Shown in pieces: positions 861 through 10,630 of a stretch of 40,821 nt of DNA (the stretch's first letter is position 1; every line of letters starts with the position of its first letter). Location of the stretch: positions 1 to 40,821 of the IMG/VR virus record IMGVR_UViG_3300009285_003650; one strand, written 5' to 3'. The translations under genes and the position numbers were made by a program. Origin of the DNA: a virus. The notes under the pieces are model-generated. The model was not told the origin of the DNA, searched no databases, and saw only the letters and a program-made list of their open reading frames with translations.

Positions 861-951
861 TGCGGGAGAGCATCATGCAAAAAACCTTCAGGAGCCCGGC
901 TGGTATTATCAAGCCGCATTGCTCTCCCGTGATGCAGGCTGGCTGGGCTCC
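861..951 (+). ncRNA. Pseudoknot RNA element IV, 5' end of the early transcript
   Basis: Two long helices interleave. CGGGAGAGCA (863-872) pairs with TGCTCTCCCG (920-929), and GGAGCCCGGC (891-900) pairs with GCTGGGCTCC (942-951) with one G-U. The order A-B-A'-B' is that of an H-type pseudoknot with an A-rich 18-nt linker between A and B. It begins about 8 nt after a putative -10, as in the three leader cassettes at 5608, 9112 and 35170. Unlike those, no start codon follows at 17-19 nt; a long structured region follows instead. It may be a leader or the 5' domain of a larger RNA. Confidence 0.5.
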
Positions 952-3780: not shown

Positions 3781-4824
3781 ATGACCGAGCCAACCAAGAC
3801 CGCGATTCAGCCAGTGACCGAAACCAAAAAGGAGTTGGTGCCGGCTGACACCAGCCACCAGGACGCCAAGGCCGCCCGCGTGGACCAAGTGGCCCAACTA
3901 CTGGCCCCAGCCTACGCCGCCGCGTCCACGCTCAAACTCACCGAGGCCGAGGACAAAGCTCTCGGCGAACGGTTCGATGACCGCGATGTTGAACTCCGGT
4001 CCCACGATGGGCTTTTGTACGTACCGCACATCCTCATCAGCGACCGGCTCAACAAGGTGATCGGGAGGGGCCAATGGTCCCTAGTTCGGCGGTCTGAGAA
4101 GTTTGATGCTCAGGCGGGGCAGCTCTACGCCGAGTGCATCCTCATCATCCGTGGCTGCTACGTTGGTGAGTCAATCGGCGCGATGCAGTACCACGCGAAC
4201 AACCCGAAGATGAACTACGGAGACGCGCTGGAGGGAGCGCAGTCTGAGGCCCTTCGCCGAATCGCCGCGAAACGACTGGGCATCGGCGACCAGGTTTGGC
4301 GGCCCGCCTACTGCCGGGCGTGGGTTGAGAAATACGCCGAGCAGTTCACTGCGCCCGACGGGAAAACCAAGTGGCGCCGCAAGTCCTTCAAGCCAGCCCC
4401 GTCCCCAGCGCCCGACCAGCCCGGGCCCGATGATACCGGCGAACAGCCCGCACCACCGGATCCCACCATCGAACCGATTGCGCCACCCACCGAGCCGACC
4501 GATGGCGCCATGCCCATCCTGCCACTGCCAGCCGGGCTCAAGGAAATTTGGCCGTCCACCGAGTTCACCGATTCCACCACGATCGAGCAGTTGACCGTGG
4601 TTTCCATCATCGACCGGATCAAGTCGCCGAAATCCGGCAAGCTCGGCCCCTGGAAGATCGCGCTGAAACGAGAGGACGGGACCCAGTTCACGGCGGACAC
4701 ATTCTCCGGGTCGATGACTGCTCTCTGCCAGCGATTCGGCGCCGGGGGCGAGCCGCGGGAGGTGGCCATCAACACCGTTGTCTCTGGGAAATGGACGAAC
4801 CGCCAGATTTGCGGAATACGGTAG
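3781..4824 (+). CDS. Mgm101/Rad52-type single-strand annealing protein
   Basis: This 347-residue protein has an N-terminal half (about residues 55-185) that matches the Mgm101 family of Rad52-like annealing proteins. Landmarks are an RSHDGLLYVPH segment, GRGQWSLVRRSE, and YGDALEGAQSEALRRIAAKR followed by IGDQVW. It would coat single-stranded DNA and anneal complementary strands for recombination-dependent replication. A Pro-rich linker (roughly 200-250) leads to a separate C-terminal domain of about 95 residues, predicted mostly beta and possibly OB-like, which I do not recognise. ATG 3781 has AAAGGGGAC upstream. An in-frame upstream extension from 3604 overlaps the exonuclease and is rejected. 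Confidence 0.85.
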   Translation: MTEPTKTAIQPVTETKKELVPADTSHQDAKAARVDQVAQLLAPAYAAASTLKLTEAEDKALGERFDDRDVELRSHDGLLYVPHILISDRLNKVIGRGQWSLVRRSEKFDAQAGQLYAECILIIRGCYVGESIGAMQYHANNPKMNYGDALEGAQSEALRRIAAKRLGIGDQVWRPAYCRAWVEKYAEQFTAPDGKTKWRRKSFKPAPSPAPDQPGPDDTGEQPAPPDPTIEPIAPPTEPTDGAMPILPLPAGLKEIWPSTEFTDSTTIEQLTVVSIIDRIKSPKSGKLGPWKIALKREDGTQFTADTFSGSMTALCQRFGAGGEPREVAINTVVSGKWTNRQICGIR

Positions 4825-6511: not shown

Positions 6512-8245
6512 ATGCAATCACTTCGACCTTACCAGCAGTCTCAATGTGACGAGGCTTGCGACCTACTCAAGCAGCATCGGTCATGCTTGATCGTAATGGC
6601 AACCGGGCTAGGGAAAACTCGGGTAGCAAGTGAGTTGATCGAACGCTACAAACCACAGCGCACGCTCTTTGTTGTCGGGCAGCGCGACCTGGTGTTGCAG
6701 GGCGCCCGTCAAATCGGCAGCGTGACGGGGATCGACTGCGACATCGAAATGGCCGAGATGCGGGCCGCAACTGGATTCTGGAATCGCTCGGGTGTTGTGG
6801 TGTCCACGTTCCAAACACTGGTCAGCGGCAACGAATCCCAGCGAATGCAGCGACTCTCGCCTAAAGATTTTGGTTTGATGATCGTTGATGAAGCACACGA
6901 GGCAACAGCAGTTACGCGGCAGCACACGATCCGCTATTTCCTCGACGGCAATCCCGACATGCGGCTGGTCGGATTGACGGCGACACCCGAACGCACGGAT
7001 GAAAAGGCACTGGGCCAAGTTTTCGAGTCGGCTACAACACCATACGAACTCGCGGAAGCGATCCGCGACGGCTGGCTGGTCAACGTCGAACAACGGATCG
7101 TAAACGTGCACAACCTAGATTTCAGCCACATCGACATCACCGCCGGAGACCTGAACGGGCTGCAACTGGCTACGGAGATGGAGCGCGAGTCCGTGGTGAT
7201 GGAGATCGTTCAGCCCACGCTTGAGGCCATGTATGACCTGCCCGTGCAATCCCTTACCAGCGAGCCGATCGAGCGATGGGCGGAAATTATCAACGCCACC
7301 GGCCGCGCGCCGCGGCGGACAATCGTATTCGCCGTCCGCGTTCATCATGCCGAATTACTCTGCGAGATTTTCAACCGTGTTCTGGCCGGCAGGGCTGGCT
7401 GGGTGAGCGGCAGCATGGCCCGGGAAAAGAGACGGCAGACGATGGAAGCGTTCGCCGATGGGCGGCTCTCCGTGCTCTGCAACGTGAACGTGTGCGGCCA
7501 GGGGTATGACAACCCGGCCGTCAGCCTGATTGCAATGGCCCGGCCAACCAAGTCACTGCTCCGCTATCAGCAGATGCTTGGCCGCGGCACGCGGACGCTG
7601 CCCGGTGTTCTGGACGCGCACGCCGAGGGGGTCAACGGCAGCGCGGAGCGGTTGAGCGCGATTGCGGCGAGCGACAAGGACCGTATCGTTGTCCTAGACT
7701 TCGTAGGAAATTCTGGCCGCCACGTGATCGTAAATTCCATTGACGTGCTGGGCGGTAAGTACGGTGACGAGGTTGTGGCCCGCGCCAAGAAACGTGCTGA
7801 AGAAGAAGGGCGGGCAATCGGCACTGAACTCCTGGAAGAGGAAGAGGCTCGCCAGAAGCAAATCGACGAAGCCAAGTTGCGCGAGGCGGCCCGCAAAGCC
7901 AAGCTGGTCGGCAAAGTCACCTACACCGTGCGCGTGCAGAATCCGTTCGACGTGCTCGGGTTGCAGCCTGTCCGCGAGCGCGGCTGGGAGACGGGCAAAC
8001 CGTTGACGCCGGGCATGATAAAGGTTCTCAAGCAGATGACGGTAGATTACACCACCTTGAGCTATGGCCAGGCATTGCAACTGGTCAGAGAGCAGATAAG
8101 ACGGTGGAAGCTGAAGCTCGCTTCACCCAGGCAGGTTCAGGTCTTGCGCCGGTTTTACACCGATCTGGACTGGGCGAACCTTGGATTCAAGCAGGCCAGT
8201 AGCATGATCGACGCGATAGCCAAGAACGGATGGAGGAAACCATGA
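6512..8245 (+). CDS. Superfamily II DNA/RNA helicase (DEAH-type)
   Basis: The 577-residue protein has the full set of SF2 helicase motifs: Walker A ATGLGKT (30-36), DEAH (126-129), TATPER (156-161), and in domain 2 a motif V/VI region with NVNVCGQGYDNP and QMLGRGTRT (about 350-360). The closest pattern is the phage/bacterial Ssl2/RecQ-like family related to UvsW. It would unwind or remodel branched DNA using ATP in replication and recombination. A charged, coiled-coil-like stretch precedes a C-terminal domain of about 100 residues. It starts 3 nt after the previous stop, and its own stop overlaps the next ATG. Confidence 0.9.
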   Translation: MQSLRPYQQSQCDEACDLLKQHRSCLIVMATGLGKTRVASELIERYKPQRTLFVVGQRDLVLQGARQIGSVTGIDCDIEMAEMRAATGFWNRSGVVVSTFQTLVSGNESQRMQRLSPKDFGLMIVDEAHEATAVTRQHTIRYFLDGNPDMRLVGLTATPERTDEKALGQVFESATTPYELAEAIRDGWLVNVEQRIVNVHNLDFSHIDITAGDLNGLQLATEMERESVVMEIVQPTLEAMYDLPVQSLTSEPIERWAEIINATGRAPRRTIVFAVRVHHAELLCEIFNRVLAGRAGWVSGSMAREKRRQTMEAFADGRLSVLCNVNVCGQGYDNPAVSLIAMARPTKSLLRYQQMLGRGTRTLPGVLDAHAEGVNGSAERLSAIAASDKDRIVVLDFVGNSGRHVIVNSIDVLGGKYGDEVVARAKKRAEEEGRAIGTELLEEEEARQKQIDEAKLREAARKAKLVGKVTYTVRVQNPFDVLGLQPVRERGWETGKPLTPGMIKVLKQMTVDYTTLSYGQALQLVREQIRRWKLKLASPRQVQVLRRFYTDLDWANLGFKQASSMIDAIAKNGWRKP

Positions 8246-8699: not shown

Positions 8700-9100
8700 A
8701 AATGAACGCCCTAGATAAAGCTCAGAACTCCGAAGCGGATGGAGTGGTCGAGTCGGCTGCACAGTGCGGTTTGGTGTTTGAGGCGGTGGACGCCACCAGC
8801 GATGAACAATACTGGACGCTGGGAATCTGGATGACGCTCGAAGCCGCGCTCGCCGAGCTTGAAGGCTGCCAAGAGCCAAGCGATTTCGGATGCTATGACC
8901 ACGATGACTATGACGAAGTGTGTGTGGTGGAAATTAGAGAGAGAAAAATCGGCTGGTCTGGCGTCGGAAAGAAACTCGCAACGCTGACATGGCGCAGAAA
9001 ATACGACGAGGCCTCCGATGAATTTAGGTGGTATCGTGACGAAACCGCCAACCCGTCCGATGCCCGAAAGTTGTTGACGACGAAAGGACCGGTACGGTAG
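8696..9100 (+). CDS. Hypothetical acidic protein, 134 aa
   Basis: The 134-residue protein has an acidic middle (CYDHDDYDEVCVVEIRERKI) and a strand-rich core with WMTLEAALAELEGC, reminiscent of small alpha/beta proteins that follow nuclease genes. ATG 8696 overlaps the HNH stop; an alternative ATG lies two codons later at 8702. The last codons overlap the -10 element (TAGAGT 9098-9103) of the next promoter. No family recognised. Confidence 0.65.
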   Translation: MKMNALDKAQNSEADGVVESAAQCGLVFEAVDATSDEQYWTLGIWMTLEAALAELEGCQEPSDFGCYDHDDYDEVCVVEIRERKIGWSGVGKKLATLTWRRKYDEASDEFRWYRDETANPSDARKLLTTKGPVR

Positions 9101-9103
9101 AGT
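9074..9103 (+). promoter_or_regulatory. Promoter of leader cassette II
   Basis: TTGACG (9074-9079) and TAGAGT (9098-9103) are 18 nt apart. The -10 contains the stop codon of the upstream gene. Predicted transcription begins near 9110, right at the first pseudoknot helix (9112). The sequence flanking the -10 (CCGGTACGGTAG) resembles that of the promoter at 35135 (GGTCCGGTAG). Confidence 0.6.
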
Positions 9104-9111
9104 GCACAACA

Positions 9112-9202
9112 TGCTAAGGTTACATTCAATCCCCCGGTCACACGCGGTCGAAAGACCATTGGACCGCCTCTGGCGTTCCGACCTTAGCAGGCGTGTGACC
9201 GG
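9112..9202 (+). ncRNA. Pseudoknot leader RNA, element II
   Basis: Helix A is TGCTAAGGT (9112-9120) with ACCTTAGCA (9181-9189), 9 bp perfect. Helix B is CCGGTCACACGC (9134-9145) with GCGTGTGACCGG (9191-9202), 12 bp perfect. Between B and A' are hairpin C, GGTC-GAAA-GACC (9146-9157, a GNRA tetraloop), and hairpin D, GGACCGCC (9161-9168) with GGCGTTCC (9172-9179), which has one mismatch. A and B interleave, so the RNA is a compact pseudoknot with two nested hairpins. It starts at the predicted transcript start and ends 17 nt before ATG 9220, just ahead of GGAGGAGG. This is the best formed of the family. Confidence 0.75.
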
Positions 9203-9219
9203 CACTTTCGGAGGAGGCA

Positions 9220-10290
9220 ATGGCGGGACGAAACGCAATCTCGGTCGTGAGTAATTCTGGATTGACTCTTGGACGATTGTTTTCCGTGCTTCCGTGTGGA
9301 CTGAAGATCGAAGGCCATCCGAGTTTTGAACAATGGTCGGTTGCCGGATTGCAGCTTGGCCGTTGCCAAAAATCCGTCCTATGGTGGCTCGGCGATTGGA
9401 TAAACTACGGAGAACACGAATACGGCGAGAAGTACGCACAGGCGTTGAGCGAGACGGAGTTTGAATATCAGACGGTCCAGAATGCCGCGTGGGTTTGCCG
9501 ACAAGTAACAATCTCCCTACGTAGGGAGAACCTCTACTTCGGCCACCATGCTCTTGTCGCCAGCCTGCCACCATCCGAGCAGAAGCGATGGCTGGAAAAG
9601 GCCGAGGCCGAAGGCTGGACAGTCAAGCAACTACGGCAGGCGCAGATTGATGAACCGCGCAAGGCTCTTGCTGCCGCCTTTCAGAAAATCAAACCCTCCG
9701 ACAGATGGATAGTACATCAGGCGGATATGTCCGAATGGAAAACGGAACAGCGGTTCGACTGGATCATTACCGATCCGCCGTATCCTCGTGAATATCTGCC
9801 GCTCTATGAAACACTGGCATTGCGTTCCCGTGATTGGTTGAAGGATGGCGGCCTTCTTGTGGCGATGTGTGGCGAGTCATATCTCCATGAGATTTTTTCA
9901 CTGATGGCAAAGCATCTTCGGTACTATTGGACGGCGGCTTATATGCTCCCCGGGCAACCGACACCAATGCGCCAAGTCAATGTGAACTGCTCATGGAAAC
10001 CATTGCTGATGTTCTGCAAAGGCGAATACACCGGCAAGATTTTCGGAGACGTTTTCCGCAGTGAAGCCGATGACAAGGATTTCCATGAGTGGGGACAGTC
10101 TGTAAGCGGCATGTATGACATCGTTTCCAAGTTGGTCCTACCCGGTCAGTCGATTCTTGATCCATTCTGCGGAGCGGGCACAACGGGCATTGCCGCTATC
10201 AAGCACGACTGTCTTTTTGTTGGCGTCGAAATTGATACGGATTGTGCGAAGATCGCAAGGAGACGCATCCATGACTGCTGCAAGGCGTGA
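9220..10290 (+). CDS. DNA methyltransferase, beta-class motif order
   Basis: The 356-residue protein has the catalytic motif IV DPPY at 185-188 and the S-adenosylmethionine-binding motif I DPFCGAGTTG at 314-323. This motif order (IV before I, with the target-recognition region between) defines beta-class N4-cytosine or N6-adenine methyltransferases. The N-terminal 140 residues form a separate helical domain with HHALVASLPPSEQKRWLEKA, also seen in ParB-like phage proteins. No cognate restriction enzyme is adjacent, so it is probably an orphan that masks phage DNA or marks it for regulation. GGAGGAGG precedes the ATG. It has its own promoter and pseudoknot leader. The modified base and site are unknown. 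Confidence 0.88.
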   Translation: MAGRNAISVVSNSGLTLGRLFSVLPCGLKIEGHPSFEQWSVAGLQLGRCQKSVLWWLGDWINYGEHEYGEKYAQALSETEFEYQTVQNAAWVCRQVTISLRRENLYFGHHALVASLPPSEQKRWLEKAEAEGWTVKQLRQAQIDEPRKALAAAFQKIKPSDRWIVHQADMSEWKTEQRFDWIITDPPYPREYLPLYETLALRSRDWLKDGGLLVAMCGESYLHEIFSLMAKHLRYYWTAAYMLPGQPTPMRQVNVNCSWKPLLMFCKGEYTGKIFGDVFRSEADDKDFHEWGQSVSGMYDIVSKLVLPGQSILDPFCGAGTTGIAAIKHDCLFVGVEIDTDCAKIARRRIHDCCKA

Positions 10291-10630
10291 CGGGCATTCT
10301 ACCGAATTTGGCCTGTGGGTCAGAGAACAACCGGCCCTTGCCAGTGAACTCGGTTTTATCGCAACCAACCTCGATTTCATCTGGCACAACTACCGAACGG
10401 GCCAGTGGATGTTGATGGAAGAAAAACGGTGCATGAAGCAGATCCCACCCTGGCAGGCGCGCCTTTATCAAATGGTTGATGTGTGCTGCAAGGTGGCTGG
10501 CACAAATTACTGCGGTTTTCACCGTCTGGTATTCGAGCATCATTCGCCTACCGATGGTCAAATGTGGCTTGACGGCAAACTACTCACCGAAAGCGAACTC
10601 GTAGAGTTTCTTAGGACTTTCCGAAGATGA
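10271..10630 (+). CDS. Conserved phage protein of unknown function, 119 aa
   Basis: The 119-residue protein contains ELGFIATNLDFIWHNYRTGQ and WMLMEEKRCM, followed by a strand with GFHRLVFEHHSPTDG and a C-terminal helix. I recognise this as a recurring small family in tailed phages, with a possible nuclease-like E-x-K (MEEKR), but no assigned role. ATG 10271, with AAGGAG upstream, overlaps the methyltransferase end by 20 nt. The long frame from 10115 would overlap the methyltransferase deeply and is rejected. Confidence 0.7.
   Translation: MTAARRDGHSTEFGLWVREQPALASELGFIATNLDFIWHNYRTGQWMLMEEKRCMKQIPPWQARLYQMVDVCCKVAGTNYCGFHRLVFEHHSPTDGQMWLDGKLLTESELVEFLRTFRR

Follow-up and report, generated by a model that had tools for sequence, protein, structure and literature searches.

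The leader of a DNA methyltransferase operon in the window (the whole 40.8-kb virus record analysed here) is occupied, from a sigma70-type promoter to the methyltransferase gene, by two interleaved helices, A and B. We found about 20 leaders on 18 other virus or bacterial contigs that likewise carry an A-B-A'-B' pseudoknot between a promoter and a first gene, and we consider this pseudoknot leader to be very probably a real conserved RNA element. The occurrence of the same knot, built from different letters, in unrelated phages suggests an undescribed RNA switch that depends on shape and not on sequence.

The pseudoknot leader of the window

All parts of the leader lie on the forward strand. 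The promoter, TTGACG-18-TAGAGT (9074..9103), was assigned from sequence with a consensus score of 9/12 (IMG/VR contigs name no host); its TTGACG box (9074-9079) is separated by an 18-nt spacer from the TAGAGT box (9098-9103), and transcription is predicted to start at about 9110-9111. Helix A pairs TGCTAAGGT (9112..9120, reaching 9121 if a U-G pair is counted) with ACCTTAGCA (9181..9189, beginning at 9180 with the same pair), which gives 9 perfect base pairs, or 10 with the U-G pair. Helix B pairs CCGGTCACACGC (9134..9145) with GCGTGTGACCGG (9191..9202) in 12 perfect base pairs, and no U-tract follows its 3' arm in the window copy. Within the A/B span lie a GGTC-GAAA-GACC hairpin with a GAAA loop (9146..9157) and a second hairpin, about GGACCGCC-TCT-GGCGTTCC (about 9161..9179). 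The arm order A-B-A'-B' makes this a true H-type pseudoknot. B' ends 17 nt upstream of the methyltransferase ATG at 9220, which is preceded by the ribosome-binding site GGAGGAGG (9210..9217). An open frame of 47 codons (9111-9254) spans the leader, its ATG standing 7 nt after the −10 box and one base before helix A. An earlier note, made from the letters of this DNA, had described the promoter, helices, hairpins and ribosome-binding site, all of which were present to within one base; its perfect, interleaved helices of 9 and 12 bp were read directly from the sequence, and a repeat search also recovered their arms.

Of 100 random 41-kb sequences matched to the window in dinucleotide content, 7 contained at least one interleaved perfect pair totalling 21 bp or more within 160 nt, so that, taken genome-wide and by itself, the window helix pair is only mildly unusual. 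The score of the 119-nt leader was reached by none of 10,000 dinucleotide shuffles. This shuffle test, together with the excess of significant methyltransferase relatives described below, led us to reject simple chance. The nested part of the leader folds at z = −3.4. The state containing the B hairpin has −41.1 kcal/mol and the state containing the A hairpin −29.7. Without helix A, the nested B fold is stable by itself, and we estimate that the stacking of helix A (roughly −19 kcal/mol), added to the B state, should outweigh the usual pseudoknot penalty.

Direct comparison of the locus DNA with phage records returned no similarity. At gathering and at relaxed thresholds, Rfam returned nothing relevant: in the window no family reached its gathering score, and matches near the leader were at chance level.

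Pseudoknot leaders in related loci

Downstream of the leader are the methyltransferase gene (9220..10290, +; N6_N4_Mtase, with DPPY followed by DPFCGAGTTG in motif order) and a co-oriented gene with no Pfam match (10271..10630, +) that also follows the methyltransferase in many relatives. A search with the latter yielded 29 related viral loci, most with a methyltransferase just upstream, and scans with methyltransferase alignments added further viral and bacterial loci. Each leader was scored against its own shuffles with a pseudoknot scorer that admits ungapped helices; a first scorer that allowed bulged helices was discarded because random sequence scored too well.

Among 78 unique methyltransferase loci, 14 had p < 0.01 (0.8 expected), and in a stricter start-picking run the same held, at p ≤ 0.01, for 15 of 67, a few of which are hairpin-driven and are not members. 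The leader is absent from most methyltransferase relatives. Four loci that pass the shuffle test (L006, L116, L198 and L153) were not counted, since either no promoter-headed A-B-A'-B' arrangement was seen or the score was driven by a single hairpin; four members (L103, L104, L166 and L232) were accepted partly by eye.

In many loci the long interleaved complementary segments stand directly behind a TATAAT-like box and upstream of the methyltransferase, and the promoters, TTGACA/G-16 to 18-TATAAT-like, occupy the same place as that of the window. The A-B-A'-B' order holds in every member, A begins just after the promoter, and B' usually ends 10-33 nt before the first gene. The window leader shares the features of the class, with pairing beyond shuffle expectation, a promoter just 5' of A and a gene just 3' of B'. 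Helices range from 6 to 20 bp, as in L005 (A 20 bp, B 19 bp), L004 (A 10 bp, or 17 with a bulge, B 17 bp), L054 (12 and 17 bp), L071 (9 and 20 bp), L088 (13 and 17 bp) and L045 (7 and 20 bp), and almost every copy has a stronger B than A. A third complementary pair, C, runs between the same segments in L054 and L031 and is nested in B in L104 and L232.

The arms have no recognisable sequence in common across leaders, weak similarity being confined to the window and L004. L027, whose methyltransferase is of a second type, with a ParB-like N-terminus, also has a pseudoknot leader; its protein is 65% identical to that of L232, and the two leaders have unrelated arms in the same topology. The earlier note had named loss of A/A' and B/B' pairing in homologues as the finding that would count against it. 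We found instead that the arms of homologous leaders are entirely different and yet pair with the interleaving unchanged, and its proposal of a promoter followed by a 5'-terminal pseudoknot leader is strongly supported by relatives whose leaders share this architecture.

Structured RNA classes are normally found through conserved sequence and covariation. These leaders keep their topology while their letters are fully replaced, and sequence-seeded RNA searches would therefore miss the class, which may be common in phages.

RNA-level pairing and the form of helix B

Single internal non-Watson-Crick pairs in the helices of the class were G-U in 15 cases and of another kind in 3, a comparison that is tilted towards G-U by a helix finder that admits G-U and no other mismatches, and whose p-value is not to be taken literally. 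That the exceptions are mostly G-U points to probable selection on the RNA.

At least four T residues directly follow B' in 15 of 22 leaders (1.0 expected), and when members were chosen by shuffle score alone a U-tract followed B' in 11 of 18. A clear U-tract is missing from the window copy and from L031, L234, L027, L054 and L004; in an intrinsic-terminator test of window helix B, the hairpin was present and the U-tract was not (CACTTTCGG). Because a U-tract directly follows B' in most leaders, helix B of most relatives looks like an intrinsic terminator, the loop of which would hold A', paired with the start of the transcript.

Leaders of other operons

Most leaders stand before methyltransferase operons, whose enzymes fall into at least three types, and some before replication operons, a breadth that is biased because the route to most members was a methyltransferase search. 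We scanned the contigs of ten member phages piecewise for extra copies. Several phages carry two or three leaders, with different letters each time. G003 has a copy before a replication-initiator/DnaB operon (L157 4720-4825), and G009 has two further copies, each followed by a U-tract, a ribosome-binding site and an ATG; a cluster of small genes and a replication protein lies behind the first, a 122-residue gene behind the second. The second copy in G005 precedes a methyltransferase, assigned to the MT-A70 type from sequence motifs and not from a search, and a nuclease-like gene. In a single phage, that of L241, two different methyltransferase operons each have a pseudoknot leader (4149-4254, −, and 7881-7952, +), with unrelated arms. 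Since other genes also follow the leader, we rejected an operator specific to methyltransferases.

A promoter matching at least 9 of 12 consensus positions next to a shuffle-significant pseudoknot marks almost only operon-head copies, and the same rule applied to 240 kb (HK022, lambda, three other phages and two short regions) marked none.

Comparison with known RNA elements

The earlier note had recognised no named riboswitch or ribozyme in the leader, and the comparison with Rfam and the lack of conserved bases across leaders bear this out. HDV-like ribozymes and H-type riboswitches also have interleaved helices, but the window leader lacks both a conserved core and a helix between A' and B', and it has no Rfam match. 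The absence of any conserved sequence among leaders disfavours a ligand-binding RNA, which the note had listed among its options. The STAXI motif (Weinberg 2010) is likewise a pseudoknot RNA near phage and plasmid genes for DNA handling and antirestriction; it differs in having tandem repeats, frequent UUCG loops and a consensus (PMC2864571), whereas the window has no Rfam match. P4 CI, P1 c4 and Gifsy-1 IsrK resemble the class in that segments of a phage leader are complementary to later segments and are linked to termination or to the gene that follows; P4 CI RNA and IsrK are instructive examples of self-pairing leaders with early termination. They are, however, processed trans-acting RNAs, whereas the helices of the class interleave and lie close together at the extreme 5' end, and the C4 antisense RNA consensus in Rfam gave no match. 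The leader is not one of the recognised riboswitches or ribozymes, nor put, STAXI or C4 RNA, and it may represent a separate class.

Attenuators with intrinsic terminators and promoter-proximal phage terminators, such as those of the lambda tR' type, share with the class the order of promoter, short leader, terminator hairpin and gene. Attenuators of this kind differ from the class, in which the terminator's loop is joined by pairing to the start of the transcript and the early hairpin shares no bases with the terminator.

A possible attenuator mechanism and its alternatives

From the promoter, topology, RNA-level pairing, position, recurrence and U-tracts of the relatives we infer a folding order, a competition or threading step and a regulatory outcome, and we tentatively favour, as quite possible, the reading that the window leader is a copy of an unnamed class of cis-acting, topology-dependent, attenuator-type leaders at the heads of phage operons. 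The 5' arm of A would emerge first from RNA polymerase and pair with A' before B' is made, trapping B in the loop of A. Once made, B' would pair with B, and B:B' with its U-tract would form the intrinsic terminator hairpin that stands before the gene in most relatives. The ease with which B:B' forms around a closed A:A', whether threaded through it or after melting it, would set the share of polymerases that reach the operon, and might set ribosome passage to the operon likewise. Since the window copy has no U-tract, its effect would lie in pausing, weak termination or ribosome access. A and B share no bases, and the hypothetical competition between them would therefore be one of topology, not that of a classical attenuator; the greater strength of B nevertheless parallels attenuators in which a weak hairpin comes early and a strong one late. 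By a simple estimate from their lengths, the connecting segments should be long enough in nearly all members for A and B to coexist as a pseudoknot. That the class is defined by topology alone, as a knot-gated intrinsic terminator in which the kinetic barrier to threading B through closed A is the switch and any interleaved-pairing sequences suffice, seems to us rather unlikely. With these leaders, control of a terminator by a pseudoknot that folds during transcription becomes open to experiment, and phage operons for DNA modification and replication would gain a regulatory layer made of RNA.

Control of the antisense type is an unlikely alternative. Here the 5' half (A and B), or the terminated leader, would serve as a small RNA and base-pair in trans with the A' and B' arms of its own leader. 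Selection would then act on complementarity only, leaving the sequence free to diverge and giving specificity to immunity or autoregulation, and the absent sequence conservation, the U-tracts and the phage context would all be accounted for; some leaders (L054 and L031) even have the third complementary pair in the same order. There is a precedent in P4, whose CI RNA base-pairs with seqA and seqC and brings about termination (PMC4825925). Arms in parallel order would nevertheless make a poor contiguous antisense duplex, the 0-2 nt between B and A' in L005, L014 and L054 leave little space for a separate small RNA, and several unrelated copies per phage and the lack of a C4 match also speak against it. 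Somewhat less probable still is translational control, by which the pseudoknot near the ribosome-binding site would be a target of the encoded protein or would gate 30S binding directly. Classical pseudoknot-based operators are those of T4 gene 32 and of ribosomal-protein mRNAs, B' ends close to the start codon in the relatives as it does in the window, and L104 has a purine-rich, SD-like stretch within B'. The diversity of the proteins that follow (three methyltransferase types and replication proteins) and the lack of conserved bases make specific protein binding unlikely, however, and the U-tracts would be left unexplained.

A translated leader is improbable as a general explanation. Here a 5'-terminal AUG just before A would open a short frame through the pseudoknot (9111-9254 in the window), and ribosomes would melt the knot. 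An ATG does stand at or just before the first base of A in the window, L005, L014/L032, L175 and L104, and the frames exceed those in pairing-preserving shuffles (p about 0.02-0.04 for the window, L005, L014, L032 and L175; p = 0.10 for L104) in a pattern that was noticed after the fact; E. coli has 5'-terminal AUGs upstream of SD-led genes (PMC4965119). About half of the leaders, however, have no such frame, and we rejected a conserved leader peptide as a general explanation, because the peptides are dissimilar and a 1-nt indel shifts the frame between the near-identical leaders of L014 and L032. Equally improbable is that the structured 5' end remains attached to RNA polymerase, as in put-like antitermination, which the earlier note had suggested, or blocks RNases as a 5'-end stabiliser. 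The position fits, right behind early-type promoters and at several operons, and HK022 put is likewise a cis-acting RNA that heads phage operons, has two sites per genome, putL and putR, of which putL immediately follows its promoter, and suppresses termination in cis with no help from a phage protein. The architecture does not fit: put is built of two adjacent stem-loops spanning about 70 nt, its sites resemble each other in sequence (PMC9378689), and it makes specific contacts and has no pseudoknot, whereas the class has A-B-A'-B' topology with free bases and usually ends in a terminator-like U-tract. The promoter and pseudoknot scan found no such element in HK022, and a literature search returned no article joining HK022 put with pseudoknots.

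Additional observations

Elsewhere in the window, a second candidate for an interleaved pseudoknot (862..951, +; 862-872/919-929 with 891-904/938-951) had a score reached by none of 4000 shuffles. It lies near the start of a rightward gene cluster, with a weaker promoter and inside a doubtful ORF (860-1567), and an ATG 2 nt before it resembles the placement of the ATG at 9111. A high degree of structure extends over 700-1310 (z = −4.4), and at 1925-2270, within ORF 1580-2422, tandem repeats of about 27 bp encode repeated (G/E)NSSV-type units.

Among the relatives, L014 (4700-4842) and L032 (4660-4800) have near-identical pseudoknot leaders and methyltransferases whose ParB-like N-terminal parts are of different types, a pattern that suggests possible module exchange. 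In L062 (2125-2160), B' and the T-run are also able to pair with a AAAAGCCCCG stretch just downstream to give an alternative hairpin. The early methyltransferase coding region of L045 (880-971, −) contains palindromic TGACACATATGTGTCA-type repeats that are possibly operator-like, and a stretch of the phage contig L064 (1892-1953, −) scores 34.7 bits against the type II hammerhead ribozyme model, close to its gathering score of 37.
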